Positions 3,470 through 63,860 of a stretch of 64,000 bases of DNA are shown here, piece by piece. The stretch's first letter is position 1. Each line of letters begins with the position of its first letter. This stretch comes from an uncultured Sediminibacterium sp. (GTDB lineage Bacteria; Bacteroidota; Bacteroidia; Chitinophagales; Chitinophagaceae), in contig NZ_CAMLMJ010000016.1 of assembly GCF_946481145.1 (NCBI RefSeq), positions 1 to 64,000 of the forward strand. The letters are read 5' to 3'. The notes under the pieces were generated by a model. It did no database searches. It was not told the DNA's origin and was given only the letters and a program-made list of their open reading frames with translations. The position numbers and the translations under genes were made by a program.

Positions 3470-3640
3470 TTGGCTGTTAGCTTTTGGCCATTAGCTGTTA
3501 GCCTTGATTGGTGCTCCATTTAGGATTTCTGCTATTTTAGAACACGAATTTTCAAGATCCATCATGATAAATCATGAAAATCTGCGTTCCTATCCTTCGC
3601 GTGCAGCCTGCAGCTTGAAGCTTGCAGCTTGCAGCTCAAT
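3470..3640. repeat. Composite intergenic repeat, copy 1 (core GCCTTGATTGGTGCT)
   Basis: This stretch between two genes has no ORF. It begins with GTTAGC/TTAGCTG words. A core at about 3501-3540 (GCCTTGATTGGTGCT, then TTTAGG and TTTCTGCTATT) comes next. A second module at 3541-3594 (AACACGAATTTT ... CATGAAAATCTGCGTTCC) follows, and the element closes with GCAGCTTGAAGCTTGCAGC words at 3604-3637. The same core occurs at 42693 and 63675 and the second module at about 42824, so this is a dispersed element. The promoter of the downstream S1 gene must lie in 3640-3728. Confidence 0.8.
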
Positions 3641-19023: not shown

Positions 19024-19258
19024 GATATGTCAGATGGCAGATGTCAGATGGCAGATTTATGGCTGATGTCTGATGGCAGATGTCAGATTTATGTCTGATG
19101 TCTGATGTCGGATGTCGGATTTAAGATTTTATATATTCAATAAGAAAAGCTGAACAACTTAATTGGGTTCAGCTTTCTTATTAAATCAAATCCGACATCT
19201 GACATCTGCCATCTGACATCCGACATCAGCGATCCGCCATCAGACATCAGAAATCGTG
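19024..19258. repeat. Large word-array inverted repeat (GATGTCAGATGGCA words)
   Basis: The left half (19024-19122) is built of GTCAGATGGCAGAT/TCTGATGTCGGAT words and the right half (about 19186-19258) of the complementary ATCTGACATCTGCCATC words. The central A+T-rich part holds a separate hairpin (19139-19183). The array fills the convergent gap and supplies the stop codon (TGA in GATGTCTGATGG on the minus strand) of the gene ending at 19240. Confidence 0.85.
19139..19183. terminator. Hairpin at centre of the convergent gap
   Basis: AATAAGAAAAGCTGAAC (19139-19155) pairs with GTTCAGCTTTCTTATTA (19167-19183) with one bulged A. The stem is flanked by A- and T-rich sequence on both sides, so it could terminate transcription from both neighbouring genes. 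Confidence 0.6.
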
Positions 19259-39600: not shown

Positions 39601-40317
39601 TTAAAATGAAGCAAGTACATCTGCAAGGTGTACAACTTTTAATCCTGATCCTTTGTGTTTAATACAACCATCAATATGCATAAGACAGCTCATATCTGTG
39701 CTGATAATATATTCAGCACCCGTTGCGGTTGCGTTCGTGATTTTCTGATCTGCCATTGCTACGCTGATGGGTTCAAATTTCACCGCGAAGCTACCACCAA
39801 ATCCGCAGCAGGTTTCATTATCCGCCATTTCTATCAGTTCAAGTCCTTTTACCTGCTGTAACAATTTCCTGGGTTCCTGTTTCAATCCACATTCACGCAG
39901 TGCTGCGCAACTATCATGATAAGTAGCTTTTCCTTCAAAGCTTGCACCCAGGTTTTCAACCTTTAAAATATTTACCAGGAAATCTGAAAGTTCAAAAATT
40001 CTTTCGCTAAGTTTTCGGGCCACTTGTTGTTGTGAAGATTGTTCGTACAGTTTACTGTAATAGTTCTTTACAAAACCAACACAACTTGCACTGGGAGCCA
40101 CAATATAATCAGAGCCACTAAAGTCTTCGATAAATTTGTTGCAGACATCTTTGGCTTCACCCCAGAAGCCTGCGTTAAAAGCTGGTTGACCACAACAGGT
40201 TTGGTTGGCATTATAATCAACTTCACAACCTGCTTTCTCCAGTACTTTTACCATGCTGAACCCCACACCGGGGTAGAGTTGGTCTATAAAACAGGGTATG
40301 AAAATCTGTACGCGCAT
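39601..40317 (-). CDS. lutA: CCG-domain Fe-S oxidoreductase subunit (LutA/LldE-like)
   Basis: This 238-residue protein has two CCG domains: the first with NQTCCGQPAFNAG (about residue 40) and the second with NETCCGFGGSFAVKF (about 175). An internal APSASCVGFVKNYY is also present. These Cys bind a heterodisulfide reductase-type [4Fe-4S] cluster. The family includes LutA/LldE, the membrane-associated or soluble subunit of lactate or glycolate oxidation. Partner genes lutB and lutC are not next to it here, so the substrate remains open. It lies between ribH and the EVE gene, all on the same strand. Confidence 0.85.
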   Translation of the reverse strand: MRVQIFIPCFIDQLYPGVGFSMVKVLEKAGCEVDYNANQTCCGQPAFNAGFWGEAKDVCNKFIEDFSGSDYIVAPSASCVGFVKNYYSKLYEQSSQQQVARKLSERIFELSDFLVNILKVENLGASFEGKATYHDSCAALRECGLKQEPRKLLQQVKGLELIEMADNETCCGFGGSFAVKFEPISVAMADQKITNATATGAEYIISTDMSCLMHIDGCIKHKGSGLKVVHLADVLASF

Positions 40318-40326
40318 AAACTAGTA

Positions 40327-40818
40327 TTAAGACTTGGCGTTCATCAGTTTACGGTTAAGGGCAATCATCTTGATGGCTGTTATGGCTGCTTCTTCACCTT
40401 TATGGCCATGACTGCCTCCAATTCTGTCTATTGCCTGTTGCTCGTTGTCAACGGTCAACACACCAAAAATAACAGGCACATCGAGTGAAAGGTTCAATTG
40501 TAAAACACCATCGGTTACTGATTTACATACATAATCAAAATGTGGTGTATCCCCCCTGATAACGGCGCCCAGAGTGATATAAGCGTCAGGAAGGGTTTTG
40601 CTGTAAGCATAATGGTTCTTAACAGCAAAAGGGATCTCTACAGCACCAGGAACTACAATGCTCACAACTTTGATTCCCTGGGCTTTAAAAATCTTTTTTG
40701 CACCTGCTTCCAGTTTATTAATGATGTGGGCGTTCCACTCGGTTTTAATGATAACAACAAAGGCATCCTTTAGGGTGGGGATGCCTTTGTTTAATGAGGT
40801 ATTTCCTTTAGTTGCCAT
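40327..40818 (-). CDS. ribH: 6,7-dimethyl-8-ribityllumazine synthase
   Basis: The penultimate enzyme of riboflavin synthesis, condensing the ribityl pyrimidine with 3,4-dihydroxybutanone phosphate. At 163 residues it is of the usual length. Seen: FVVIIKTEWNAHI, VPGAVEIPFAVKNH, ITLGAVIRGDTPHFDYVCKSVTDG with the catalytic His, and PVIFGVLTVDNEQQAIDRIGG. It starts at 40818, where its ATG overlaps the stop of the TPR gene (TAATG). Together with the lutA-like and EVE genes downstream it may form an operon. Confidence 0.95.
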   Translation of the reverse strand: MATKGNTSLNKGIPTLKDAFVVIIKTEWNAHIINKLEAGAKKIFKAQGIKVVSIVVPGAVEIPFAVKNHYAYSKTLPDAYITLGAVIRGDTPHFDYVCKSVTDGVLQLNLSLDVPVIFGVLTVDNEQQAIDRIGGSHGHKGEEAAITAIKMIALNRKLMNAKS

Positions 40819-41507
40819 TAGTTAGCTCCCAGGTCATTTTTTTCAATGCTTAAACGATAGATATATCTCTCAGCCTGAAAACCTTTATCGGTTTTAGGGA
40901 ATTTCTCTTTGATCTCTTTGTAAAGAGCCAGTGCTTCATCCTGCTTACCTTTTGTTTCGAGAAGAAGGGCCGCACGGAACAGATATTCTGCAGAGTTATT
41001 GTCGTCTTTTTCGAAAGTGCTTCCAGCTTTTTTATAATAACTGATGGCATCATCAAATTTGTTTTGCTCTGCATAAGCATCTCCTAAAGCACCGTAAGCC
41101 AATAATTGAATTTGTTTGGCATCGGTAGAGAAATCTTTCAGGTATTTAACCGCATTATTGAAATCGCCAAGCTTAAGATAGCTAACACCAGCATAAAAAT
41201 GTGCAAGGTTGGCAGCTTTTGTTCCACCAAAGTTTTTAATTACGTAGAGGGCACCACGAAATTGACCATCACCATTTAAGGCAAGGTTGGCAGAGTCCAT
41301 ACGGAAATACTCTTCAGCTTTGAATAAAGCTTCAGCAGCTTTCTCTTCTTTTGGTTTTACAATGAACTCATTGTAGCCATACCAGCCACCAAAACCAATC
41401 ACAACAACTGCAACGGCCCCAATGATTATTTTTTGGTATTGTTTCCAGAAACCTTGTGCTTTGGCCAGGGTCTGCTGATCGTGCGTCACTTCGTGCTTAT
41501 CACTCAT
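40818..41507 (-). CDS. YfgM-like TPR membrane protein
   Basis: This 229-residue protein has an N-terminal helix (YQKIIIGAVAVVVIGFGGWYGYNEFI) that may anchor it in the inner membrane, followed by TPR repeats (FYAGVSYLKLGDFNNAVKYL, YGALGDAYAEQNKFDDAISYYKKAG, EYLFRAALLLETKGKQDEALALY). The layout resembles YfgM/TPR_21, chaperone-associated proteins of the periplasmic side. The stop overlaps the ribH start, suggesting translational coupling. It is downstream of pdhA by about 38 nt, so it could be read from the pdhA promoter. Confidence 0.82.
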   Translation of the reverse strand: MSDKHEVTHDQQTLAKAQGFWKQYQKIIIGAVAVVVIGFGGWYGYNEFIVKPKEEKAAEALFKAEEYFRMDSANLALNGDGQFRGALYVIKNFGGTKAANLAHFYAGVSYLKLGDFNNAVKYLKDFSTDAKQIQLLAYGALGDAYAEQNKFDDAISYYKKAGSTFEKDDNNSAEYLFRAALLLETKGKQDEALALYKEIKEKFPKTDKGFQAERYIYRLSIEKNDLGAN

Positions 41508-41545
41508 GGGAAATTGATTATTCGAGTTTATAGGTGTTTATTAAA

Positions 41546-42541
41546 TTAATCTACTATGAAAGGATAGTTCTGGTCGATGTATACATCTTTCAGCACTTCG
41601 CTATCATCTGGCCATGGACTGTCTTCTGCAAAACGAACACTTTCTTCTACAACAGCGTCAATACGTTTGTCTATTTCAGTCAGGAATTCTTCTGTAGCAA
41701 ATCCGTTTTCAAGAATGGTATTACGCACCTGTGTAATTGGATCTTGCTCTTTGTATTCATCTACTTCTTCCTTAGAACGATATTTCTGAGGGTCGGAAAT
41801 AGAGTGTCCTTTGTAGCGATAGGTTTTCATCTCAAGCAGGGTTGGACCATCGCCTTCTCTTGCTCTTTTTACAGCCCTTGCCACGCCTTCGTGAACAGCT
41901 TCAGCCGACATACCATCGATTTTATCAGCAGGCATATCGTAAGCATCGGCAAGTTTATAGATATCGGTTACGTTACTGGTACGTTCAATGGAAGTACCCA
42001 TCGCGTAATTATTGTTTTCGCAAATAAAAATTACCGGTAATTTCCAGGTCATTGCCAGGTTAAATGTTTCATGCAACATACCTTGTCTGGCAGCCCCATC
42101 TCCAAAATAACAAAGCACCACATTATTAGACCCCCTGTATTTTTCAGCGAATGCTAGTCCGGCACCAGTACCGATCTGGGCTCCTACGATACCATGACCA
42201 CCAAAAAACTTGTGTTCTACACTGAAAAAGTGCATACTACCCCCTTTTCCTTTGGCGCAACCGGTTGCTTTGCCATATAGCTCGGCCATACAGGCATTGG
42301 CACTAACCCCTTTGGCAAGGGCAAGACCGTGGTCTCTGTAGGCAGTAATAAAAGGATCGTCTTGCTGAGTGGCGGTCATGCATCCGGCTGCAATTGCTTC
42401 CTGGCCTACATAGGCATGGAAGAATCCGCGGATCTTACCCGCCATTTTATACATTTCCTCGGCTTTCAGCTCAAACTGGCGAATAAGCTGCATCAGCTCA
42501 TACCAGTATAAATATGTTTCTTTAGAAAATTTGGTTGGCAC
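41546..42541 (-). CDS. pdhA: Pyruvate dehydrogenase E1 alpha subunit
   Basis: The thiamine-pyrophosphate subunit of the pyruvate dehydrogenase complex, alpha chain. The GTG at 42541 is the preferred start, giving VPTKFSKETYLYWYELMQL; no ATG is nearby, and the longer frame to 42685 has an unrelated N-terminus. Seen: GKIRGFFHAYVGQEAIAAG, GGSMHFFSVEHKFFGGHGIVG, CYFGDGAARQGMLHETFNLA with the TPP pyrophosphate motif GDG ... NN in CENNNYAMG, and the TYRYKGHSISDPQKYR loop. The length of 331 residues is normal. The partner beta subunit is not adjacent. A TATATTTG -7 box lies about 20 nt upstream. A 5' copy of this gene lies at 44670. Confidence 0.93.
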   Translation of the reverse strand: MPTKFSKETYLYWYELMQLIRQFELKAEEMYKMAGKIRGFFHAYVGQEAIAAGCMTATQQDDPFITAYRDHGLALAKGVSANACMAELYGKATGCAKGKGGSMHFFSVEHKFFGGHGIVGAQIGTGAGLAFAEKYRGSNNVVLCYFGDGAARQGMLHETFNLAMTWKLPVIFICENNNYAMGTSIERTSNVTDIYKLADAYDMPADKIDGMSAEAVHEGVARAVKRAREGDGPTLLEMKTYRYKGHSISDPQKYRSKEEVDEYKEQDPITQVRNTILENGFATEEFLTEIDKRIDAVVEESVRFAEDSPWPDDSEVLKDVYIDQNYPFIVD

Positions 42542-42560
42542 TTGGTCAAATTTTGAGGAG

Positions 42561-42568
42561 CAAATATA
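42561..42568 (-). promoter_or_regulatory. -7 box (TATATTTG) for pdhA
   Basis: TATATTTG on the minus strand, 19 nt upstream of the GTG start, matches TANNTTTG. The duplicated copy at 44870-44877 reads TAAACTTG, so the box is degraded there. Confidence 0.55.
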
Positions 42569-42629
42569 GGGGTTATACGGCAAAAATTGAGGGGCGGCCC
42601 TGGGATGGGTATAAAGAGTAAGAAAGCTG

Positions 42630-42940
42630 CTAAAAGGGAGCTTCTGGCTGTTAGGGGAAATTAGGCTGCATGCTTCAAGCTGCAAGCTGCAAGCCTTGAT
42701 TGGTGCTTGGTTTAGGTTTTCTGCGATTATTTAAATAAGTGAGGGTTTTGCGTATTAGGTCATGTAAAATCAGCTGGATTAATGAATGTTTGATGGCTAT
42801 TCATGCACTATCCGTCTATAATAAAACACGGATTTTTACGATCTATCTTGATAAACCATGAAAATCATGAAAATCTGTGTTCCATAAAACCCATGATATA
42901 CAACCCGTAGCTAAATTCCCCAATAAAGCCTGCAGCCAAC
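42630..42940. repeat. Composite intergenic repeat, copy 2
   Basis: This gap of about 400 bases has no gene. TGCTTCAAGCTGCAAGCTGCAA words (42669-42692) are followed by the core GCCTTGATTGGTGCTTGGTT (42693 onward, to about 42732). A spacer and the second module (AACACGGATTTTTACGATC ... CATGAAAATCTGTGTTCC, about 42824-42888) come next, then AGCCTGCAGCC near 42930. Order and content match copy 1 at 3470-3640, with a longer spacer. Confidence 0.8.
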
Positions 42941-42947
42941 AGATTTT

Positions 42948-43424
42948 CTAGGCTTCTATCAACTCCAATTCCTTGCCAGGTTCAAAAGTGGGAATTTCAA
43001 TGGAATCGATGAGTTTTTCTTCCAACAGGGTGGCGTATGTTTCAAAATAGAGGATTACATGATCACGCTCGTTTCTTTTAAGCCACCTGAACCCACCTGG
43101 CAATGCATTCAGCACCTCCCGGTCATCCAGGTATTCGAGGTGGTGAATATCAGTTGGCGTAAGACCTGTTTCCTGTAATTTTTTGAGTAATAAACTTACC
43201 GGCGCATTGGTTACCCCACAATAGTCTTCTGCGAGCTCAGTCCATTCTCCGATACCCGTTTGTGCATAAGTTAGGATTTCTTCTTTCGATAAATCTGTAA
43301 TAACCTGCAAAAGGTTGCCACAATTACAGGAGCCATGATTGCCCCATGCATAATGTGCGCCCTCACGTAAACGGTTTGCGGTGTTACGCAAGGCTTCAAT
43401 CAATGTTAAGTTGGGATTTGCCAT
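42948..43424 (-). CDS. Conserved-looking protein of unknown function
   Basis: This 158-residue protein (MANPNLTLIEALRNTANRLREG) has no signal peptide. HYAWGNHGSCNCGNLLQVITDLS contains a C-x-C-x2... cluster that could bind metal. Further segments are GEWTELAEDYCGVTNAPVSLLLKKLQ, HHLEYLDDREVLNAL and VILYFETYATLLEEKL. I have seen this type of sequence in Bacteroidota without a known function. It belongs to the first unit of the pdhA-pruA duplication and has no copy in the second. Confidence 0.72.
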   Translation of the reverse strand: MANPNLTLIEALRNTANRLREGAHYAWGNHGSCNCGNLLQVITDLSKEEILTYAQTGIGEWTELAEDYCGVTNAPVSLLLKKLQETGLTPTDIHHLEYLDDREVLNALPGGFRWLKRNERDHVILYFETYATLLEEKLIDSIEIPTFEPGKELELIEA

Positions 43425-43672
43425 TTTTTATACTTTAAGGATATACCAATCTAATCGGTTTACTATTCCTGATTATATCAAAATACAATTTACGGATTTG
43501 ATTTGTTGAAATTCTCAAAGCAGTTCCCGGCTTTTTTAATACTGTTTAAGCTGTAGGGGTGGTTCAATTCAATCTATTAAACGGCACTGTTAAAAAAACG
43601 AAAAAGAAAAAATTAATTGAACCCTTTTGTCTGCAGCACTGTATTGGTAGTATAAAAACTAAAACGACAAAT

Positions 43673-44185
43673 ATGAAAATGAAATTTTTCTCTCTGGCTT
43701 TCGCGTTAATGATGGGTGCATTTATTACCGTGTCTGCTCAAAAAACAGTTGTAGATGTAGCAGTAGGTTCTAAAGATCACAGCACATTAGTTGCCGCTGT
43801 TAAAGCCGCTGGTTTGGTTGAAACATTACAAGGTGCTGGTCCATTTACTGTATTCGCACCAGTAAATCAGGCTTTTAGTAAATTACCTGCAGGTACTGTA
43901 GAGAATTTATTGAAACCAGAAAACAAAGCACAACTCGCTAAAATACTCACTTACCATGTAGTTGCCGGTAACCTGGATGCTGCTGCAGTTGTAAAAGCTA
44001 TAACAGATGGCGGTGGAAAAGCGGTAGTGAAAACAGTTAGCGGCGGAACACTCACAGCATCAATCAGCAATGGCAAAGTAATCCTGACCGATGAAAATGG
44101 CGGTACTGCAACGGTTACTGCTACCGACCTGAAAGCTGGTAACGGTGTGATTCATGTGATTGATGGAGTAGTATTGCCGAAGTAA
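43673..44185 (+). CDS. Secreted fasciclin (FAS1) domain protein
   Basis: This 170-residue protein starts at the ATG 43673, which gives a standard signal peptide (MKMKFFSLAFALMMGAFITVSAQ). A longer frame to 43559 is possible but its N-terminus is not signal-like. The single FAS1 domain shows DHSTLVAAVKAAGLVETLQGAGPFTVFAPVNQAFSKLPAGTVENLL and ILTYHVVAGNLD (the H1 and H2 conserved blocks), ending in NGVIHVIDGVVLPK. FAS1 proteins are extracellular and mediate adhesion or matrix binding. It is monocistronic, followed by a clear terminator at 44287. The TAA stop continues into a GGAATAAG word array. Confidence 0.9.
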   Translation: MKMKFFSLAFALMMGAFITVSAQKTVVDVAVGSKDHSTLVAAVKAAGLVETLQGAGPFTVFAPVNQAFSKLPAGTVENLLKPENKAQLAKILTYHVVAGNLDAAAVVKAITDGGGKAVVKTVSGGTLTASISNGKVILTDENGGTATVTATDLKAGNGVIHVIDGVVLPK

Positions 44186-44189
44186 GAAA

Positions 44190-44240
44190 AAGAATAAGAA
44201 ATAAGAAATATGGAATAAGGAATAAGAAAGGATTTGTTTG
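44190..44240. repeat. GGAATAAGAAATAAG word array after the fasciclin gene
   Basis: Tandem AAGAAATAAG/GGAATAAGG words follow the fasciclin stop by a few bases; the matching reverse-complement words (ATTCCTTATTCC and CATATTTCATATTTC types) lie at 44372-44473. Together they could pair across the terminator at 44287. Confidence 0.8.
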
Positions 44241-44286
44241 AATGATGAAATTTTCCCCCAGAATCTCCGATTTCTCATGTGCATGA

Positions 44287-44312
44287 AAAAGCCTCCAAAT
44301 GGAGGCTTTTTT
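44287..44312 (+). terminator. Intrinsic terminator of the fasciclin gene
   Basis: AAAAGCCTCC pairs with GGAGGCTTTT around a 4-nt AAAT loop, with a T-run after the stem. It lies about 100 nt past the stop. Confidence 0.85.
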
Positions 44313-44371
44313 AATATCGAATGATAAATGAATAATTCATAAAGAAATATTAGTAAAAACTACACCCTCAC

Positions 44372-44473
44372 TTCCTTATTCCTTATTCCATATTCCATAT
44401 TCCATATTCCATATTCCATATTTCATATTTCATATTTCTTATTTCTTATTTCTTATTTCATATTCCTTATTCC
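44372..44473. repeat. CCATATTCC / CTTATTTC word array
   Basis: ATTCCATATTCC repeated about five times, then TTCATATTTCATATTTC and TTATTTCTTATTTC words. It ends one base before the stop codon of the pruA fragment. Confidence 0.85.
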
Positions 44474-44885
<412 letters not shown>

Positions 44886-45218
44886 GGGCAAACCTGAGTT
44901 AGACTTAGTTTAATATTAAAGGCAAACGCATCTTTTTTTTTGACTTTGGCAAAATCAATCTGGTCATATGTCTGCAAAAGATCAATTTGTATTGTATTCG
45001 AAAGTGTATTTATCTAGATGTCTTTGCCTTGGCTTGATATTGCAGTTTCGTATCTTCTTCGTTAAGTATTTATGTGTTACTAGTGTATAAACTCGGTATT
45101 TATCTGAGTTCTCGGGGATTAATATATAGTTCAAATATACAATATTTTCTACATGTGCAACTGTGTCTTTTCTCAGTTACTTTAATAATCCTTATTCCAT
45201 ATTTTAAAAAAAAAATAT
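44886..45218. other. AT-rich leader of the lipoprotein cassette
   Basis: This 330-base stretch has no credible gene and no clear -33/-7 pair. A T10 run (44933) and an A10 run (45205) flank it, and CCTTATTCCATATTTT at the right is a word of the 44372-44473 type. Homology to pdhA stops at about 44885. A 72-codon frame at 45074-45292 overlaps the lipoprotein start and is not credited. Confidence 0.5.
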
Positions 45219-46079
45219 ATGAAATTTTTAACCAATTTTACAAAAAACATTACAGTAGTATTAGCCCTTCTTTGTTTTATTTCCGGGTGTAAAAAAAGTG
45301 AAACAGGAGGAGTGATATCAGTTTCATCAGATGAAAAAATTCGTTTGCAACAAATAAGTGTTAAAATAAAAGAGGCACAACTACAGGCAAAAGAATGGTA
45401 TGAAAAAGCTATTCATAATATAAAGAGTGGTAAATATGATTATTTAAAACTTGTTAAAGTTCAACGATCAGATGATGGAGGTGTTGGCGGTAATGAAAGT
45501 TTGGTTACTGATACAGCTTTTGTTGGTTTGTTATATTCTACTATATATAATGGGTTAGAAAACTACGATTATTATGTTCATAGTATGGGTACAACAGCGT
45601 ATAATAGCTTTGTTGCTGAAGCGATGTCTGCAAATGCAGATATGAGTTCGTTATTTACAAGTTATGGGCAATTTGAAGATCCTTTTCTTGAAAATTCAGC
45701 AGCAGTTTTTGCAAATGCAGCCTTAGTCATGAATAACAATGCAGATTTTGCTAACTTAGATCCTGTATCTCAAAAAGCTGTTCTTGAAGAAAGTATCGGA
45801 TTTTATTTTGAAAACGACCCGGTCTTATCTACTCCCCCTTCAGGCATACAAGTAAGTAGTATATTAAGTGACGTAACTTCATGCTTATGGGACGCCGTAG
45901 GAGGGTACTTAATAGGGAATGCTAGAATAATTAGAGATATAGTTGGTGCTATTAACGGATCGTCTATGGGATATGCATTTATTTATGCAATGGCAGGAAA
46001 AATACTAAAACAGACATTTGTAAACGCCGGGGGATGGTTTGGTATTGCAGCAGGCTTTGCTTGGTGTATGATTTTTTAA
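45219..46079 (+). CDS. Lipoprotein with glycine-rich hydrophobic C-terminus, unknown function
   Basis: This 286-residue protein has a lipoprotein signal (lipobox I-S-G-C, Cys about 24; MKFLTNFTKNITVVLALLCF). The middle (25-215) is acidic and helix-rich with YDYLKLVKVQ, SAAVFANAALVMNNNADFA and VLEESIGFYFENDPV. The C-terminal 65 residues (Cys 222 to the end) are hydrophobic and Gly-rich (AVGGYLIGNARIIRDIVGAI, MAGKILKQTFVNAGGWFGI) with Cys at 222 and 283, which could form a disulfide. The composition resembles pore-forming or bacteriocin-like tails, but I recognise no family. Hand counts of three 60-base lines in this gene gave 32-37 percent G+C, lower than much of the surrounding coding DNA. 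It is followed after 16 nt by a small membrane-protein gene. Confidence 0.72.
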   Translation: MKFLTNFTKNITVVLALLCFISGCKKSETGGVISVSSDEKIRLQQISVKIKEAQLQAKEWYEKAIHNIKSGKYDYLKLVKVQRSDDGGVGGNESLVTDTAFVGLLYSTIYNGLENYDYYVHSMGTTAYNSFVAEAMSANADMSSLFTSYGQFEDPFLENSAAVFANAALVMNNNADFANLDPVSQKAVLEESIGFYFENDPVLSTPPSGIQVSSILSDVTSCLWDAVGGYLIGNARIIRDIVGAINGSSMGYAFIYAMAGKILKQTFVNAGGWFGIAAGFAWCMIF

Positions 46080-46095
46080 ATAGTAATTCAATTTT

Positions 46096-46392
46096 ATGGA
46101 TAAAATCAGAAGAGCTGTACAAGTCGCGCTAATTGTTATTTGTTTTGTTAGCTTAAAACGAACAGAGAATTTTTCCCTAAAGCTAACATTGTATATAGTA
46201 TGTGTTTCATTATTGGTACAAGAATTTTTAAAAATATTTAATGCAGAAATGGATGAGAATGTGCAGTTGAAAGGTGATAAATATAAATATTTACGCTTAT
46301 TCGGAATAGTAGTGGTCGAGTTATTAATATTATTAGGAGTATACTATTTATCTACATTGCTCATGTTCGAAAAAAATATTAGTAAACATTGA
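46096..46392 (+). CDS. Small membrane protein with three predicted helices, unknown function
   Basis: This 98-residue protein has predicted transmembrane helices around residues 6-22, 27-47 and 68-91 (IVVVELLILLGVYYLSTLLM), and a short charged loop of MDENVQLKGDKYKY between the last two. It contains no recognised motif. It is 16 nt downstream of the lipoprotein gene and shares a single terminator with it, so the two are almost certainly one transcript. Small polytopic proteins next to hydrophobic-tailed secreted proteins are often immunity or export partners; that is only an inference here. AT-rich codon use matches the lipoprotein. Confidence 0.7.
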   Translation: MDKIRRAVQVALIVICFVSLKRTENFSLKLTLYIVCVSLLVQEFLKIFNAEMDENVQLKGDKYKYLRLFGIVVVELLILLGVYYLSTLLMFEKNISKH

Positions 46393-46491
46393 GAATTAGC
46401 GTAGTTAAGGAATCTAAATTGCATCTTTCAAGTGGATATAAATCCTGAGAAAAGAAGACAAGTACAGAATTTTTAGATCATGGCGGATATA

Positions 46492-46527
46492 AAGAGGTTG
46501 TCTGAAATTTTAGACAACCTCTTTTTC
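46492..46527 (+). terminator. Intrinsic terminator of the lipoprotein cassette
   Basis: AAGAGGTTGTCT pairs with AGACAACCTCTT around an 8-nt A/T loop, then a T-run. It lies about 100 nt past the stop of the 46096-46392 gene, with no other gene between. Confidence 0.9.
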
Positions 46528-46593
46528 TTAGCAACCAGAATGAATAGAGGTTAAATGTTTTTTGTATTTTAATGTCTGTCGTTTTTTGCGTCA

Positions 46594-48225
46594 TTAAATC
46601 TCGCCTAAAAACGGATACTTGTAGTCCACTGGGGGATTGTAAGTTTCTTTGATGGTACGGGCACTTAACCAGCGATAAAGGTTCAGCATGCTGCCGGCTT
46701 TATCATTGGTTCCAGAAGCTCTTGCTCCACCAAATGGTTGTTGACCAACTACCGCTCCGGTAGGTTTGTCGTTGATGTAGAAATTACCCGCTGCATTACG
46801 CAATTTATTGGTAGCTAATTCAACCGCTGCTCTGTCTTGCGATAATACGGCTCCCGTTAAAGCATATGCAGAAGTGCTGTTAACCAAATCAAGCGTTTTT
46901 TCAAAATCCGCTGCTTTATAGGTATAGATGGTTAATACAGGTCCAAAAATTTCTTCGCACATTGTTCTGTATTTCGGATCGGTGGTTTCAATGATAGTAG
47001 GTTCAATAAAGTAACCTGCTTTCTTACTATAGTTACCGCCGGCTATAATTTTTGCCTTTTTATCTTTCTTAGCGCCATCGATATATTTAGTGATACTGTT
47101 GAAAGCTTTTTCATCAATTACCGCATTAATGAAATTGGTGAAATCTTCCACAGTTCCCATTTTCATGGTCTTTATTGTAGCAACCAGTTTTTGTTTTACT
47201 TCAGCAGCAATATTATCTGGCAGGTAAGCGCGTGAGGCGGCTGAACATTTTTGACCCTGATATTCAAAAGCTCCACGTGCCAAAGCAGTTACCACCGCAT
47301 CTACATCCGCACTTGAATGGGCTATTACAAAGTCTTTACCACCCGTTTCGCCAACAATACGGGGATAGGATTTGTATTTTGCAATATTCTCTCCTATAAC
47401 CTTCCACATATTATTGAATACGCCTGTAGAACCAGTGAAATGTACACCAGCAAAATCGGCATGTCCAAAACAAACTTTACCAATGGTTGGTCCATCAACA
47501 TAAATCAGGTTAATAACACCATCTGGTAATCCTGCTTCTTTTAAAATGCGCATAAATAGTTGGGCAGAATAAATTTGCGTATTGGCTGGTTTCCAAACAA
47601 CAACGTTACCGCACATTGCGGCAGAAGTGGGTAGGTTACCGCCAATGGCTGTAAAATTAAATGGAGTAACAGCCAGTACAAATCCTTCTAAAGCGCGCCA
47701 TTCCATGCGGTTGTGCATGCCAGGAGCAGAAATAGGCTGTTGTTTATAGATTTCACTTAAGAAATGCACATTAAAACGTAAAAAATCGATCAGTTCGCAA
47801 GTACTATCAATCTCAGACTGGTAGGCGTTCTTGCTTTGTCCAAGCATAGTACTGGCATTCATAGTATAACGATACTTTGTAGCCAGCAGGTCTGCTGCTT
47901 TTAAGAAGATATGTGCCCTGTTCTCCCAACTCATAGCCGCCCATGCCTCTTTTGCTTTTAAAGCTGCATCAATTGCCTGATGTACATGTTTTTCTTCACC
48001 GGAATGGAAATAACCAAGTGTATGTGCTATTTCATGAGGTGGGTGGATAGCAACTTTATTGCCTGTTTTAACTGACTTACCACCGATATACATCGGAATA
48101 TCCAGTGACTTCTTTTTCAGATCGGCGATTGCTTTTTTAAGTGCCGCTTTTTCTGGTGTGCCGGGGGCATAACTGTTAACAGGCTCATTGGCCGGAATCG
48201 GGTAGGAGAAAGTACCAAAGCTCAT
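46594..48225 (-). CDS. pruA: L-glutamate gamma-semialdehyde (1-pyrroline-5-carboxylate) dehydrogenase
   Basis: This is the aldehyde dehydrogenase that oxidises glutamate semialdehyde to glutamate in proline and ornithine breakdown. Its 543 residues are normal for the stand-alone form. Seen: AVTPFNFTAIGGNLPTSAAM, VVWKPANTQIYSAQL, the catalytic Glu in RIVGETGGKDFVI, the catalytic Cys in YQGQKCSAASRAYLP, and EEIFGPVLTIYTYK. A C-terminal [25 protein letters not shown] motif is shared with PutA-like enzymes. No proline dehydrogenase is adjacent. The last 65 codons have a duplicate at 44474-44669. Confidence 0.95.
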   Translation of the reverse strand: MSFGTFSYPIPANEPVNSYAPGTPEKAALKKAIADLKKKSLDIPMYIGGKSVKTGNKVAIHPPHEIAHTLGYFHSGEEKHVHQAIDAALKAKEAWAAMSWENRAHIFLKAADLLATKYRYTMNASTMLGQSKNAYQSEIDSTCELIDFLRFNVHFLSEIYKQQPISAPGMHNRMEWRALEGFVLAVTPFNFTAIGGNLPTSAAMCGNVVVWKPANTQIYSAQLFMRILKEAGLPDGVINLIYVDGPTIGKVCFGHADFAGVHFTGSTGVFNNMWKVIGENIAKYKSYPRIVGETGGKDFVIAHSSADVDAVVTALARGAFEYQGQKCSAASRAYLPDNIAAEVKQKLVATIKTMKMGTVEDFTNFINAVIDEKAFNSITKYIDGAKKDKKAKIIAGGNYSKKAGYFIEPTIIETTDPKYRTMCEEIFGPVLTIYTYKAADFEKTLDLVNSTSAYALTGAVLSQDRAAVELATNKLRNAAGNFYINDKPTGAVVGQQPFGGARASGTNDKAGSMLNLYRWLSARTIKETYNPPVDYKYPFLGEI

Positions 48226-48529
48226 GTTTCAAGATTTTGAGGATGCAAGGTAGGAAATAAGAAATAAGGAATATGAAATAAGGAATAAGAAATGAAGAAA
48301 TGGGTTAGTTGTTGGGTAAATTCAGGTGAGGAAGAATTGATATTCCATTGTTTTATAAGGTATTTATGGTTGCTGGATTCTTATGCCATCTGTCAGTAAG
48401 CTATCCGGAAGCTATTAATGCAAATCAAGGGTTCAACCTAAATATGGGTAAAAAAATCCCGCCATTGGTCATCATTTATTATAGGGAAATCATATTAGTT
48501 CCGTAGTTTAAATCTCTAAAAATTACGCT
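48226..48529. repeat. Divergent gap with GGAATAAG word array
   Basis: About 300 bases separate the starts of pruA (48225) and the sulfurtransferase (48530). GAAATAAGAAATAAGG and GGAATAAGAAATG words occupy 48251-48300; the rest has no ORF or obvious promoter consensus. There is no inverse array here, so this one is a single-sided copy. Confidence 0.65.
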
Positions 48530-49402
48530 ATGCGTTACCCGCTGCTTTTTATTGCCATTCTGGTATCATCAGCCCTCTGTGCACAAACCAATCCCATTCT
48601 GGTTAATCCTAACTGGTTACAAGAGCATAAAGCGGATAAAAACATGGTGGTGCTGCAAACCAATTTCCTACGCCTCGATTTCGAAAGGGAACATATTCCG
48701 GGTGCCCGTTTTCTATGGCCCGACTGGCTGGCCGCGCATTCACCAGAGGGTAATTTTAATGTACCCGATCTGATATCGGCCAGGAAAATATTACAAACAC
48801 TGGGTATCAACCAAAATTCACATATCATATTAGCCTACACGCGCACTGATCTTACGGTTACGGCACGAATGTTTTTAACACTGGAACAGTTGGGACTTTA
48901 TGGCAAAGTGAGCCTGCTTGATGGCGGACTTGAAGAGTGGAAAAAAGCAGGCTTGCCACTGGAAATGGGGCCTTCGCCCACCGCAGGCAAAGGAAATATA
49001 GAACCCAAATACCAACAACTGCTGGTTGATAAGAATTATGTACAGAAAGCATTGACAGGAACAGATAAAATGGTGGTAGATGCAAGACTAAAAAGATTCT
49101 ATGATGGAGATGTTACGGGTAATCCCCGCGACGGACATATCACCGGTGCCCTTAACCTGCCTTATCCCGACCTGCTAGACAGTACCATGAAATTTAAGCC
49201 GGTGCAGCAGTTGGCAAATTATTTTAATGCAGTAAACAAGGATAGGCAAAAAGAAATGATTGGTTATTGTTTTATCGGGCAAACTGCAAGTGTGGTTTAT
49301 CTCGCAGGAAGAATCCTTGGGTATCCGATGAAAATATATGACGGTTCATTACAGGAGTGGAGCAGGTTGCCGGAGTTACCGATGGAGAAAACCAGTCAGT
49401 AA
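48530..49402 (+). CDS. Secreted two-domain sulfurtransferase (rhodanese family)
   Basis: This 290-residue protein has a signal peptide (MRYPLLFIAILVSSALCAQ) and two rhodanese domains (about 25-150 and 165-285). The first has DFEREHIPGARFLWPDWL and ILAYTRTDLTVTARMF (no Cys at the active-loop position). The second has MVVDARLKRFYDGDVTGNPRDGHITGALNLPY and the active-site Cys in IGYCFIGQTASVVYLAG. This is the 3-mercaptopyruvate/thiosulfate sulfurtransferase layout, with the first domain inactive as usual. The periplasmic location implied by the signal is unusual for this enzyme class. The 3' end overlaps the convergent membrane-protein gene by 27 nt. Confidence 0.88.
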   Translation: MRYPLLFIAILVSSALCAQTNPILVNPNWLQEHKADKNMVVLQTNFLRLDFEREHIPGARFLWPDWLAAHSPEGNFNVPDLISARKILQTLGINQNSHIILAYTRTDLTVTARMFLTLEQLGLYGKVSLLDGGLEEWKKAGLPLEMGPSPTAGKGNIEPKYQQLLVDKNYVQKALTGTDKMVVDARLKRFYDGDVTGNPRDGHITGALNLPYPDLLDSTMKFKPVQQLANYFNAVNKDRQKEMIGYCFIGQTASVVYLAGRILGYPMKIYDGSLQEWSRLPELPMEKTSQ

Positions 49403-50128
49403 TTCAATGGCCCTTTCGGCTGCTTGAACAGCATCTTGAGGAACTGGAATCCGGATCTCTTCAAATGCAAAACCACCCTTTCTTAATTTCCATTCATACC
49501 TCACTTCTAGCAAAAGGTCTGATTGGGTTTTAATGAACTTCGCTGCAGCAACACGCATGCCAGAAGTGTTTAAAGGATATATGGTTTGGTTAAAAGCTGC
49601 TGATTCAGGTGTGATGATAATACGAACAGCATCGCCAATTTTGGGTAGTTTTGAAACCAGCGTTCGATATTTTATTAAGTAATAAATGACAGCAATCGGA
49701 AAGGAGAAGAATAAACTCATTTGAAAATTAACGGGTCTCGAAAAAATCAGGATGACACTTCCTACTATTATGATCAAACCCGATTCAAACAAAAGCCCCT
49801 TGGTTCTTCTGGCTTTTTCTGTGTTTAAGAAATGATTCCATTCAGTAGTATTGAGTTGCCAACTCACCGCATCTTCCGGTAAAACTGGGGATTGCGAAAC
49901 CTGTATATGTTTTTGTTCAATTGCCGTTATTTCTGCTCTCTGCAAAAAACCACGGATAAAGGCCACAAGACAACTGATGCCAGTAAGCAACATAACAAGT
50001 CCGCCCAATAATACCAGTCCATCGGCAGAAATAACCACCATTATCGACATGGGAAGCAGTAGTATCGCCAAAAGGAGATAGATAATGCTTGTAATGCGTG
50101 AGGTTTGTTTAAAGCTTTGTTGATCCAT
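49376..50128 (-). CDS. Membrane protein of unknown function
   Basis: This 250-residue protein has four predicted transmembrane helices in two pairs (about 11-35 and 37-62; 108-127 and 132-152), followed by a soluble C-terminal domain of about 95 residues (KIGDAVRIIITPESAAFNQTIYPLN, LLLEVRYEWKLRKGGFAFEEIRIPVPQDAVQAAERAIELL). The C-terminal half resembles a YcxB/SMODS-like membrane-regulatory layout, but I do not claim a family. The start lies only 4 nt after the base of a strong terminator hairpin (50133-50169). It overlaps the sulfurtransferase gene tail to tail. Confidence 0.7.
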   Translation of the reverse strand: MDQQSFKQTSRITSIIYLLLAILLLPMSIMVVISADGLVLLGGLVMLLTGISCLVAFIRGFLQRAEITAIEQKHIQVSQSPVLPEDAVSWQLNTTEWNHFLNTEKARRTKGLLFESGLIIIVGSVILIFSRPVNFQMSLFFSFPIAVIYYLIKYRTLVSKLPKIGDAVRIIITPESAAFNQTIYPLNTSGMRVAAAKFIKTQSDLLLEVRYEWKLRKGGFAFEEIRIPVPQDAVQAAERAIELLTGFLHR

Positions 50129-54263: not shown

Positions 54264-54438
54264 AACAGAGAAATATGAAATAAGGAATAAGAAATAAGGA
54301 ATAAGGAATAAGAAAGTTGGGGTATAGTTTGTCTACCTGTATGGATTTATTTATGTATTATTCAATATCTATATTTTCTTATTCCTTATTTCATATTCCT
54401 TATTTCTTATTCTCTATTCCTTATTTCATATTTTTGTC
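54264..54438. repeat. GGAATAAG word-array inverted repeat in a divergent promoter region
   Basis: The left arm (about 54271-54316) has GAAATAAGGAATAAGAAATAAGG words and the right arm (about 54376-54433) has the complementary CTTATTCCTTATTTC words, separated by about 60 nt. It lies between the divergent kynA and pyrF starts. A TATTTTTG box at 54429-54436, inside the array, is a potential -7 element of pyrF. Confidence 0.85.
54429..54436 (+). promoter_or_regulatory. Possible -7 box (TATTTTTG) for pyrF
   Basis: TATTTTTG fits TANNTTTG and ends only 4 nt before the pyrF ATG, which would give a leaderless or nearly leaderless mRNA. It overlaps the repeat array, so it could also be a chance match. 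Confidence 0.35.
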
Positions 54439-55290: not shown

Positions 55291-56217
55291 ATGGAGAGAA
55301 GGAAATTTTTACAGCAAGGAGCTTTGTCGGCTGCGGCTGTAGCTGCGTTGCCGATAGCATCTGCTGCAGAAACCAATGCTAAACCCTCTATTCGGGTAGC
55401 ATTTATATCCGATGTACATGTTAAGACAGGTGAAATACCGGAGCGCGGCATGCAGCAGGCATTTAAACATGTGAATGCGCTTAAGCCTTCTGTAGACTTT
55501 ATCATCAACGGCGGTGATGCTATTATGGATGCTATGAAAGCTACAAAGGCTAAAACACAGGAGCAATGGGATTTGTGGAATAAGATACTCAACGCAGAAA
55601 ATAAACTGCCCATCTATCATTGTATTGGTAACCATGATGCATGGGGTTGGCAAATGACTGAACCGGAAATTAAGAATGATCCGCTCTATAATAAAGCCTG
55701 GGCCGTAAAACAACACCAGATGCCTGGTAGGTTTTATAGTTTCACCCATAAGAACTGGAAATTTATCATTCTCGACAGTGCGCATGAAAACAATGGGGGA
55801 TATATAGCCAAAATAGATGAAGAGCAATGGATATGGCTGGAAAATGAATTAAAAAATACAGATGCGGATACGCATATTTGTATTGCCTCGCATATTCCTA
55901 TCGTTTCTTATGTGTCTGGATTCTTTTTTGATAAAACAGAAGATAACGGCGACAGAAAAATATCCCGCGCCTTATTACATACGGATTCATTCAAATTAAC
56001 AGAACTCTTCCGAAACTTTAAAAATATACGTTGCTGTCTTAGTGGACATATTCATTTACAGGATATGGTTGAATATCGCGGTATACACTACTACTGTAAC
56101 GGCGCAATAAGCGGAAACTGGTGGGGCGGAGCCTTCAAAGGATTTGCACCTGCCTATGCTGTTTTTGAATTCTTTAAAGACGGGACTTTAAGTAGGAAGA
56201 TGGTGGAATATTCGTAA
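55291..56217 (+). CDS. Secreted calcineurin-like metallophosphoesterase
   Basis: This 308-residue protein begins MERRKFLQQGALSAAAVAALPIA, a twin-arginine-type signal (R-R-K-F-L). The metallophosphoesterase motifs follow: VAFISDVHVKTGE (D-x-H), NGGDAIMD (G-D), HCIGNHDAWGW (G-N-H-D), CIASHIPIV and CLSGHIHLQDMVEY (G-H-I-H). The complete dinuclear metal site is visible. It probably folds in the cytoplasm and is exported; the substrate phosphate ester is unknown. It is probably in an operon with pyrF. The stop is followed at once by an AATTTGGAAATTTG word array. Confidence 0.9.
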   Translation: MERRKFLQQGALSAAAVAALPIASAAETNAKPSIRVAFISDVHVKTGEIPERGMQQAFKHVNALKPSVDFIINGGDAIMDAMKATKAKTQEQWDLWNKILNAENKLPIYHCIGNHDAWGWQMTEPEIKNDPLYNKAWAVKQHQMPGRFYSFTHKNWKFIILDSAHENNGGYIAKIDEEQWIWLENELKNTDADTHICIASHIPIVSYVSGFFFDKTEDNGDRKISRALLHTDSFKLTELFRNFKNIRCCLSGHIHLQDMVEYRGIHYYCNGAISGNWWGGAFKGFAPAYAVFEFFKDGTLSRKMVEYS

Positions 56218-56328
56218 TTTGGAAATTTGGAAATTTGAAAATTTGAAAATGAGATTATGGTAAAATTTGATTACCTCAAAACTAACACTCATCATTTCCA
56301 AATTTCCAAATTTTCAAATTTTCAAATT
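56216..56328. repeat. Word-array inverted repeat (AATTTGGAAATTTG words)
   Basis: AATTTGGAAATTTGGAAATT words (56216-56253) and the complementary CATTTCCAAATTTCC/AATTTTCAAATTTTC words (56293-56328) are separated by about 35 nt. The array starts at the phosphoesterase stop and its right end carries the stop (TGA) of the SGNH gene on the minus strand. Confidence 0.85.
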
Positions 56329-56930
56329 ATTCTCTCAATAACCCCCGCAACTTTCTCCGCCCATACTGCATGTGATTTGGCGGAATAGTGAAGTTGGTCG
56401 CTGGCTAAAAGTGTTGTGTCGTTTTTTGCGAGACGGGTTTGTGGAGTGATGTTTATATAATGACCACCCAACTGTTTGGTAGCTTCTTCGCAAACTTTAT
56501 TGAAATCATCTATTGCATGGCTGATTGAGTTGGTGTCTTTGCCCGATGCAAAAGGAGTTACTCCCCAATCCGGAATAGATAGTACAATAACCCTTTCTGG
56601 TTTATTGTCAGCTAAATGAATTGCTTTTTTGAGCAGGTATTGAAATTCTTCTTTAAAATCAGCAACAGGTAATCCACGGTATTGATTATTTACACCAATC
56701 AATAAACTAACAAAATCATATTGTTCATTGAGTGTAGTGTGTAAAATATGGTCAGCAAGCTCGAAGCTGGTCCATCCCGTTTTGGCAACAACTTCCGGTG
56801 CATGAAAATGAATTCCTTTTTTGCGAAGCAATTGAACCACCTGATAAGGGAAACCTTCATGCAAGGGTACCGATTCGCCGATGGTGTAAGAATCGCCTAA
56901 AGCGAGATAGCTGAAATAATGACGTGTCAT
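56322..56930 (-). CDS. SGNH/GDSL-family hydrolase
   Basis: This 202-residue hydrolase shows block I YLALGDSYTIGESVPLH with the nucleophilic Ser, block III LIGVNNQYRG (the Asn), and block V near the end with D-x-x-H in SDQLHYSAKSHAVWAEKV. The family cleaves ester or acyl groups from sugars or lipids; the substrate is not assignable. There is no signal peptide, so it is probably cytoplasmic. The stop codon (TGA) lies inside the adjacent word array. The gene is probably separate from kynureninase upstream, as the gap contains word repeats. Confidence 0.9.
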   Translation of the reverse strand: MTRHYFSYLALGDSYTIGESVPLHEGFPYQVVQLLRKKGIHFHAPEVVAKTGWTSFELADHILHTTLNEQYDFVSLLIGVNNQYRGLPVADFKEEFQYLLKKAIHLADNKPERVIVLSIPDWGVTPFASGKDTNSISHAIDDFNKVCEEATKQLGGHYINITPQTRLAKNDTTLLASDQLHYSAKSHAVWAEKVAGVIERII

Positions 56931-63597: not shown

Positions 63598-63639
63598 ATA
63601 CAAAACCATGTCTACGCTTTTTAATCAGTACTGCCGGGG

Positions 63640-63860
63640 AAAATTGGCTGCTAGCTTCTAGCCTCTAGCTGCAAGCCTTGATTGGTGCTTGTTTTAGGTC
63701 TTCTGCTATTATTTGAATAAATGACAGGGCTGGCGAATTTGTTTGGTAAAAACCTAATGAAATAAATATTTAATTACCACATCCAAGCTTGTGGATGGTT
63801 AAATTAATAGCAAAAAAAAACTTGTAGCTAGCAGCTAGAGGCTAGAAGCTGTTTTTTCTC
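63640..63860. repeat. Composite intergenic repeat, copy 3
   Basis: AGCTTCTAGCCTCTAGCTG (63653-63671) and its reverse complement CAGCTAGAGGCTAGAAGCT (63832-63850) flank a core of about 160 bases. The core begins GCCTTGATTGGTGCTTGTTT at 63675 and continues with TTCTGCTATTATTTGAATAA, as in copies 1 and 2. The AACACG module is not evident here. Confidence 0.85.

Follow-up and report, generated by a model that had tools for sequence, protein, structure and literature searches.

Heterozygous merodiploids arise on natural transformation of Streptococcus pneumoniae and, in the portion of the published account available to us, most of the duplications concerned are large and repeat-bounded, one clone carrying a 3,276-bp codY+/codY::trim duplication without flanking repeats (Johnston et al., 2013, PMC3784515). 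For the effector-immunity modules of the Vibrio cholerae type VI secretion system, the report describes, in the part at hand, the displacement of modules and proposes homology-facilitated illegitimate recombination as the route (Kirchberger et al., 2017, PMC5361080). Here we describe a locus of an uncultured Sediminibacterium sp. (NCBI RefSeq assembly GCF_946481145.1, contig NZ_CAMLMJ010000016.1, positions 1 to 64,000; this 64-kb stretch is hereafter called the window), in which the interval between pdhA and pruA is present in two tandem copies with different cargo genes. We take the locus to be a genuine scar, left where cargo was exchanged at an intergenic site of variable content, and it preserves a readable order of events. 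We see about an even chance that it represents a stacked pair of cargo alleles, a heterozygous mini tandem duplication resulting from recombination between the alleles of closely related strains. A cargo swap has apparently been caught half way in a wild genome, the newcomer added and the resident kept. As in the pneumococcal merodiploids, a resident copy and what appears to be an incoming copy stand in tandem, and the codY clone, of the same architecture and scale, is the nearest published case that we found; unlike those merodiploids, which in the available portion of the account are laboratory-selected and fresh, the locus is a fossil from the wild, its stubs decayed. With the Vibrio modules, as the consulted part of that report presents them, it shares the apparent import of two genes, an anchor of homology on one side and an illegitimate join on the other, gene remnants and orphan immunity-like genes; it differs from them in having no secretion cluster, in its housekeeping anchors, and in a resident cargo that is not a toxin-immunity pair and has been kept whole.

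The comparison set comprised 147 genomes of the genus (Chitinophagaceae), reached by a PruA scan; the window's own species is not among them. Relatives are denoted by G-numbers (genomes) or L-numbers (loci), and the pdhA-pruA interval is referred to as the gap. Coordinates are those of the window, lengths are in nucleotides (nt) or amino acids (aa), and the start of the intact pdhA was set at the GTG equivalent to that of its stub, at 44849. The features of the locus are:

41546..42541, minus strand: intact pdhA (pyruvate dehydrogenase E1 alpha), left flank of the cargo site (PF00676, E 7e-92; TIGR03182, 452 bits over cut-off)
42948..43424, minus strand: unk158, resident cargo gene 1 (homologue in 30 of the 147 congeneric genomes)
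43673..44185, plus strand: fasciclin-domain protein, resident cargo gene 2 (PF02469, E 3e-34; same position in 16 of 20 fetched relatives)
44474..44669, minus strand: pruA 3' stub, 196 nt with the stop codon (26 differences from the intact pruA)
44669..44670, no strand: junction of the pruA stub with the pdhA stub (about one base of overlap)
44670..44892, minus strand: pdhA 5' stub, 180 nt coding (GTG at 44849) plus a 43-nt leader (93.3% identity to 42361-42584)
45219..46079, plus strand: new cargo gene 1, a 286-aa predicted lipoprotein (7 database clusters, its own included)
46096..46392, plus strand: new cargo gene 2, a 98-aa membrane protein (homologue beside a lipoprotein homologue in G023)
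46594..48225, minus strand: intact pruA (L-glutamate gamma-semialdehyde dehydrogenase), right flank of the cargo site (TIGR01236, 766 bits over cut-off)
46594..46696, minus strand: last 103 nt of the intact pruA, probably exchanged with the new cargo (25 of 103 sites unlike the stub)

Two pairs of repeats, which outrank all other matches when the whole window is compared with itself, define this layout. The pdhA repeat (44669-44892 against 42361-42584, same orientation) extends over 224 nt at 93.3% identity (BLAST, E 1.8e-92, 15/224 differences). The pruA repeat (44487-44669 against 46607-46789) extends over 183 nt at 90.2% (E 2e-66), and its homology runs on to the stop codon (44474-44669 against 46594-46789, 196 nt, 26 differences). 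The spacings are 2308 nt for unit 1 and 2120 nt for unit 2, with the 224- and 196-nt repeats in register. An earlier annotation of the window, here called the sequence-only reading, had proposed a head-to-tail arrangement of units of 2.31 and 2.12 kb, in which the last 195 nt of pruA are joined at 44669/44670 to the leader and the first 180 or so coding nt of pdhA. The in-register repeats, in the same orientation, bear out this topology, the junction and the limits of the segment, and the measured spacings and stub lengths agree with the proposed sizes. The interiors of the two units had been reported to lack visible similarity, as is indeed the case: only short or simple-repeat matches, and no linking repeat pair, were found between them by self-comparison. 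There are, then, two tandem copies of one chromosomal interval with common limits, one with the resident content and the other with a different content. Unit 2 has an AT-rich interior, with 28.5-37% GC in 400-nt windows (44800 to 46599), and pdhA and pruA have 36.5-47% GC.

The order of the genes in relatives shows which content is the older. Twenty loci were fetched on grounds of a close pdhA or the presence of unk158. G108 and G124 stand closest to the window (97% aa identity in PdhA and 96% in PruA; about 86% and 83% in DNA), and G085, G116, G119 and G095 come next. A single-copy arrangement, pruA - fasciclin - unk158 - pdhA - TPR - ribH, is found in 16 of the 20 loci; the other four comprise two that are cut by a contig end but agree, and two in which pdhA adjoins pruA, free of cargo. 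All five of the nearest relatives that are readable across the site (G108, G124, G085, G116 and G119) have unk158 and fasciclin only, in one copy, and G095, in which a contig end cuts the site, agrees with this arrangement as far as it can be read. No second match to the pdhA 5' or the pruA 3' region was found in any of the 33 loci searched. Because the relatives carry a single unk158-fasciclin pair between pdhA and pruA, unit 1 keeps, by gene order, the ancestral state, and the newcomer is the interior of unit 2. Of the two histories offered by the sequence-only reading, this supports the one with a new interior and assigns that interior to unit 2; matches to the lipoprotein are present in only 2 of the 147 genomes. 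The possibility that unit 1 came in from a strain like G108 was also considered and found no support: TPR, pdhA and pruA are closer to G108 and G124, and unk158 and fasciclin are no nearer to these two than to G085, G095, G116 and G119. Despite its homologues in congeneric genomes, unk158 has no Pfam, NCBIfam or PADLOC match, and none in a plasmid collection.

Read on the gene strand, the junction is CAGCAAGGGTAATTTC, where the parent pdhA has CAGCAAGACG and the parent pruA has CAGCGGGTAATTTC. The overlap at the joint consists of one base common to both parents, plus a CAGC four-mer that is offset by two bases. Since only about one base is common to the parents, the joint between the stubs is, as far as sequence can tell, an illegitimate join, and it creates no fusion gene. 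A fusion protein was considered at this point and is ruled out, because the frame of the pdhA stub meets a stop two codons beyond the last matching glutamines, just past the joint. The junction pattern, with up to 3 mismatches allowed, occurs in none of the 147 congeneric genomes.

The pruA repeat is a mosaic. The stub and the intact gene differ at 1 position in the 93 nt beside the junction and at 25 in the last 103 nt, which sets a breakpoint at a distance of about 93 nt from the junction (best split, p 3.3e-7; 0/2000 permutations as strong). Since 18 of the 21 differing codons are synonymous, both 3' ends evolved in working genes; one of them has, on this evidence, been exchanged, and it is probably that of the intact gene, which faces the newcomer. 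Each of G108 and G124 favours the stub by 17 to 7 at the discriminating sites, and over 101 nt the end of the stub is 91% and 89% identical to these two. The protein end encoded by the stub (LFRW...LNEA) is exactly that of G124, with no amino-acid difference over 65 codons; the end facing the new cargo, in the intact gene, is LYRW...LGEI. An array of heptamers has its edge at the stop codon of the stub, and arrays between pruA and fasciclin are also present in G108 and G124 and absent from the other 18 of the 20 loci scanned. These observations suggest that the stub carries the resident 3' end and that the end of the intact gene arrived with the new cargo. The donor was probably of the same clade. 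A search for the donor locus gave a nearest match to the exchanged end of only 87%, and no outside donor could be named, the best matches being again G124 and G108. Heptanucleotide arrays of the TTCCATA/TTTCTTA type (5-15 units) are a more general feature of intergenic DNA in the window, and were located at 44195-44229, 44372-44476, 48251-48292, 54274-54315 and 54375-54409.

The two stubs have decayed unequally. Relative to the pdhA of the window, the pdhA stub differs at 13 of 182 coding sites, in 8 non-synonymous and 4 synonymous codons; 8 of the 13 sites are private (the base occurs in 0/20 relatives, and 13 to 20 of these keep the base of the window's gene), and 7 of the 8 private sites are non-synonymous. 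The leader of the stub reads TAAACTTG, where, by eye, pdhA and the 20 aligned relatives have TATATTTG; the altered motif is presumably the Bacteroidota -7 promoter element. The pruA stub, compared with G124, has no amino-acid difference and one private silent change that is not in the intact pruA. The imbalance is seen by Fisher's test for non-synonymous changes (8/182 in the pdhA stub against 0/196 in the pruA stub, p 0.003; with the 7 private ones only, p 0.006), for private sites of any kind (8/182 against 1/196, p 0.016) and for all differences from the respective intact copy (13/182 against 1/93, p 0.04). On the strength of 9 sites at which the pdhA stub agrees with the pdhA of the window and differs from both G108 and G124 (a single site shows the opposite), we assign the stub to this lineage. 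The halves of the stub pair have, to judge from these differences, separate histories: either the two ceased to belong to working genes at separate times, or recombination with wild-type DNA renewed the pruA half. The "preserved tandem duplication" of the sequence-only reading is thus upheld in its tandem repeats and proves too simple as a history, given the mosaic pruA repeat and the unequal decay of the stubs.

How might two stacked alleles have come about? The resident allele would be pdhA - unk158 - fasciclin - pruA, and the other would have the order pdhA - lipoprotein - membrane protein - pruA and bring a distinct form of the final ~103 nt of pruA. This second allele would have entered as DNA of a closely related strain and come to lie beside the resident, without replacing it: one side would have been secured by homologous recombination inside pruA, and at the other pdhA would have been joined illegitimately to pruA. 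The hallmarks of homology-facilitated illegitimate recombination are present, namely the homologous exchange in pruA (1/93 against 25/103) and the join almost free of homology at 44669/44670. The unequal decay would require an extra step: the pdhA stub may already have been decaying in the donor, or the pruA stub may later have been refreshed from wild-type DNA. If the locus is a pair of stacked alleles, strains with a single cargo are to be expected, together with segregation by either repeat; after recombination at the pdhA repeats the new cargo would remain, and after recombination at the pruA repeats the old one.

Several observations weigh against this proposal. No strain with the order pdhA - lipoprotein cassette - pruA was found, in a set without the window's own species. 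Within the set of 147 genomes, the best matches to the end of the intact pruA are likewise G124 and G108 (87% and 85%, across about 90 nt), and of the 19 relatives compared at the discriminating sites, 14 favour the stub, 4 favour the intact end and 1 ties; for both reasons the native pruA end can be assigned only provisionally. The references used in the test of decay are unlike, since the pdhA stub was set against the pdhA of the window and the pruA stub against the pruA of G124; against the window's own pruA, the pruA stub shows 3 amino-acid differences, all toward the residues of G124. Finally, one event leaves the unequal decay of the stubs unexplained, which speaks against a single exchange without later refresh.

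The chief rival, which we regard as possible but doubtful, reverses the order of events: an illegitimate tandem duplication of pdhA(5')-unk158-fasciclin-pruA(3') would have arisen within the lineage, and the interior of unit 2 would then have been replaced by homologous recombination, the crossovers falling near the leader of the pdhA stub and within the terminal ~103 nt of pruA. Such a course agrees with the gene order of the ancestral segment and with the pdhA stub, which is of this lineage by its 9 common sites, and near-identity of the pruA copies in the 93 nt beside the junction is what a duplication leaves. Stubs born in one duplication should, however, have decayed equally, and what is seen is 8 non-synonymous codons in 182 nt of pdhA against 0 in 196 nt of pruA (relative to G124; p 0.003, or 0.006 for private changes). 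A later refresh of the pruA stub is therefore needed here too. It is improbable that the locus is a chimera of assembly or binning, in which two haplotypes were joined by the assembler. The junction is known from the assembly alone, has almost no overlap with either parent and recurs in none of the congeners, as would be expected of an artefact; yet assemblers join at common sequence, of which there is only about one base here, and neither the 8 private sites of the pdhA stub (relative to 20 relatives) nor its damaged leader is expected from two working haplotypes.

The gap is a site of variable cargo across the genus. Gap sizes were tabulated for 89 genomes of 101 searched, and pdhA and pruA lie on one contig in 82 of them, at a distance of <=200 nt (60 genomes), 201-700 nt (1), 701-2000 nt (20) or 5.3 kb (1). 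In the class of 701-2000 nt, unk158 is present in 14 of the 20 genomes. Other contents are a fasciclin-like gene alone (G009 and G064), thioredoxin-like open reading frames (ORFs), 410-476 aa long, in which a CGPC motif was recognised by eye (G104, G068, G089 and G094), two large ORFs of 853 and 781 aa (G041), and unk158 without a fasciclin match (L017); the gap of G079 has no ORF of 50 aa. The second history offered by the sequence-only reading, an ancestral segment with all four cargo genes that was duplicated and then suffered complementary deletions, would yield the present order without import, but the gene order in relatives goes against it: the lipoprotein cassette is missing from this position in all 16 relatives with a complete site, and the only lipoprotein matches among the 147 genomes are in G023 (clear, elsewhere in the genome) and G089 (weak, in the C-terminal part), so that we regard it as highly improbable.

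The new cargo, in the reading as stacked alleles the content of the second allele, consists of two genes to which no family could be assigned: no Pfam, NCBIfam or PADLOC family was found above threshold for either, nor any sequence match in the PDB. The product of gene 1 is a predicted lipoprotein, its lipobox read by eye. An alignment of 8 members has 31 of its 56 invariant columns in the last 65 residues, and this conserved C-terminus is hydrophobic and glycine-rich, with 2 to 5 GxxxG spacings per member. A function for the lipoprotein was also sought from structure and dropped, the model being too weak (pLDDT 57) and without a fold match at E <= 0.001. The product of gene 2 has hydrophobic stretches, and one cluster from other sources is 97% identical to it. 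G023 has homologues of both genes together at an unrelated locus (46% identity for gene 1 and 44% for gene 2, the latter over 94 aa); G089 has a weaker and more divergent pair, in which a match to the C-terminus of gene 1 (28% over 67 aa, E 5e-4) is followed by a 104-aa hydrophobic protein. Relatives of gene 2 occur in 4 of the 147 genomes, 3 of them without a lipoprotein match at E 1e-3 (the neighbouring genes were read in G017 only). Across the family, a profile of the lipoprotein found no match in 394 genomes, in a search without a positive control. The adjacency of the two genes at independent loci (the window and G023), the orphan partners and the conserved hydrophobic terminus together make the cargo resemble a toxin-immunity-type pair, with the lipoprotein as the proposed toxin and the 98-aa membrane protein as the proposed immunity partner. 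The cassette looks like a bacterial competition system.

A cell-surface glycine-zipper bacteriocin, Cdz, has been described in Caulobacter (PMC5380434). The new cargo may be similar, as a surface-type protein with GxxxG spacings, here beside a small membrane protein; the comparison is by description only, limited to the part of the source at hand, and serves as a lead only.

Cargo also varies at a second site in this genus, flanked by genes for a 217-aa protein and a 387-aa sensor-kinase-like protein (L165 8452-9714, L180 757-1495 and L178 1075-1467). It holds the lipoprotein cassette in G023, a 130-aa ORF with a homologue of gene 2 but not of gene 1 in G017, and the 130-aa ORF in G069; G043 and G072 have no cargo there, their gaps measuring 52 and 8 nt. 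In G124 the gap at this site is unread, and in G108 the neighbour was not found.

That the new cargo is a mobile element with its own recombinase, which picked up pieces of pdhA and pruA, deserves very little credence: the cassette does occur at the unrelated site of G023, empty in G043 and G072, but no recombinase was found among the unit 2 ORFs tested (a 72-aa ORF at 45074-45292 was left out), the plasmid collection has no close match for 40000-49500, viral contigs gave 6 pattern matches and no confirmed relative of the lipoprotein, and the order of the stubs is that given by the flanking genes.

A broader proposal, which we put forward tentatively and consider rather unlikely, is that the pdhA-pruA interval acts as an integrase-free cassette site, with the housekeeping flanks as recombination handles, and that the stacked arrangement is a bistable state that can be resolved to either cargo. 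If so, a competition cassette and the old cargo would coexist until homologous recombination removes one of them, and the difference in decay between the stubs would be the trace of exchanges with wild-type DNA that recurred at this one site.

Two further features of the window were noted. An interspersed intergenic repeat, matchless in the fetched loci of the relatives, has copies at 42654-42742, 63636-63724 and 3493-3536, two of them 85% identical over 89 nt and the third 84% over 44 nt. Long imperfect palindromes, about 74% self-complementary, are present at 19063-19250 and 56215-56329.

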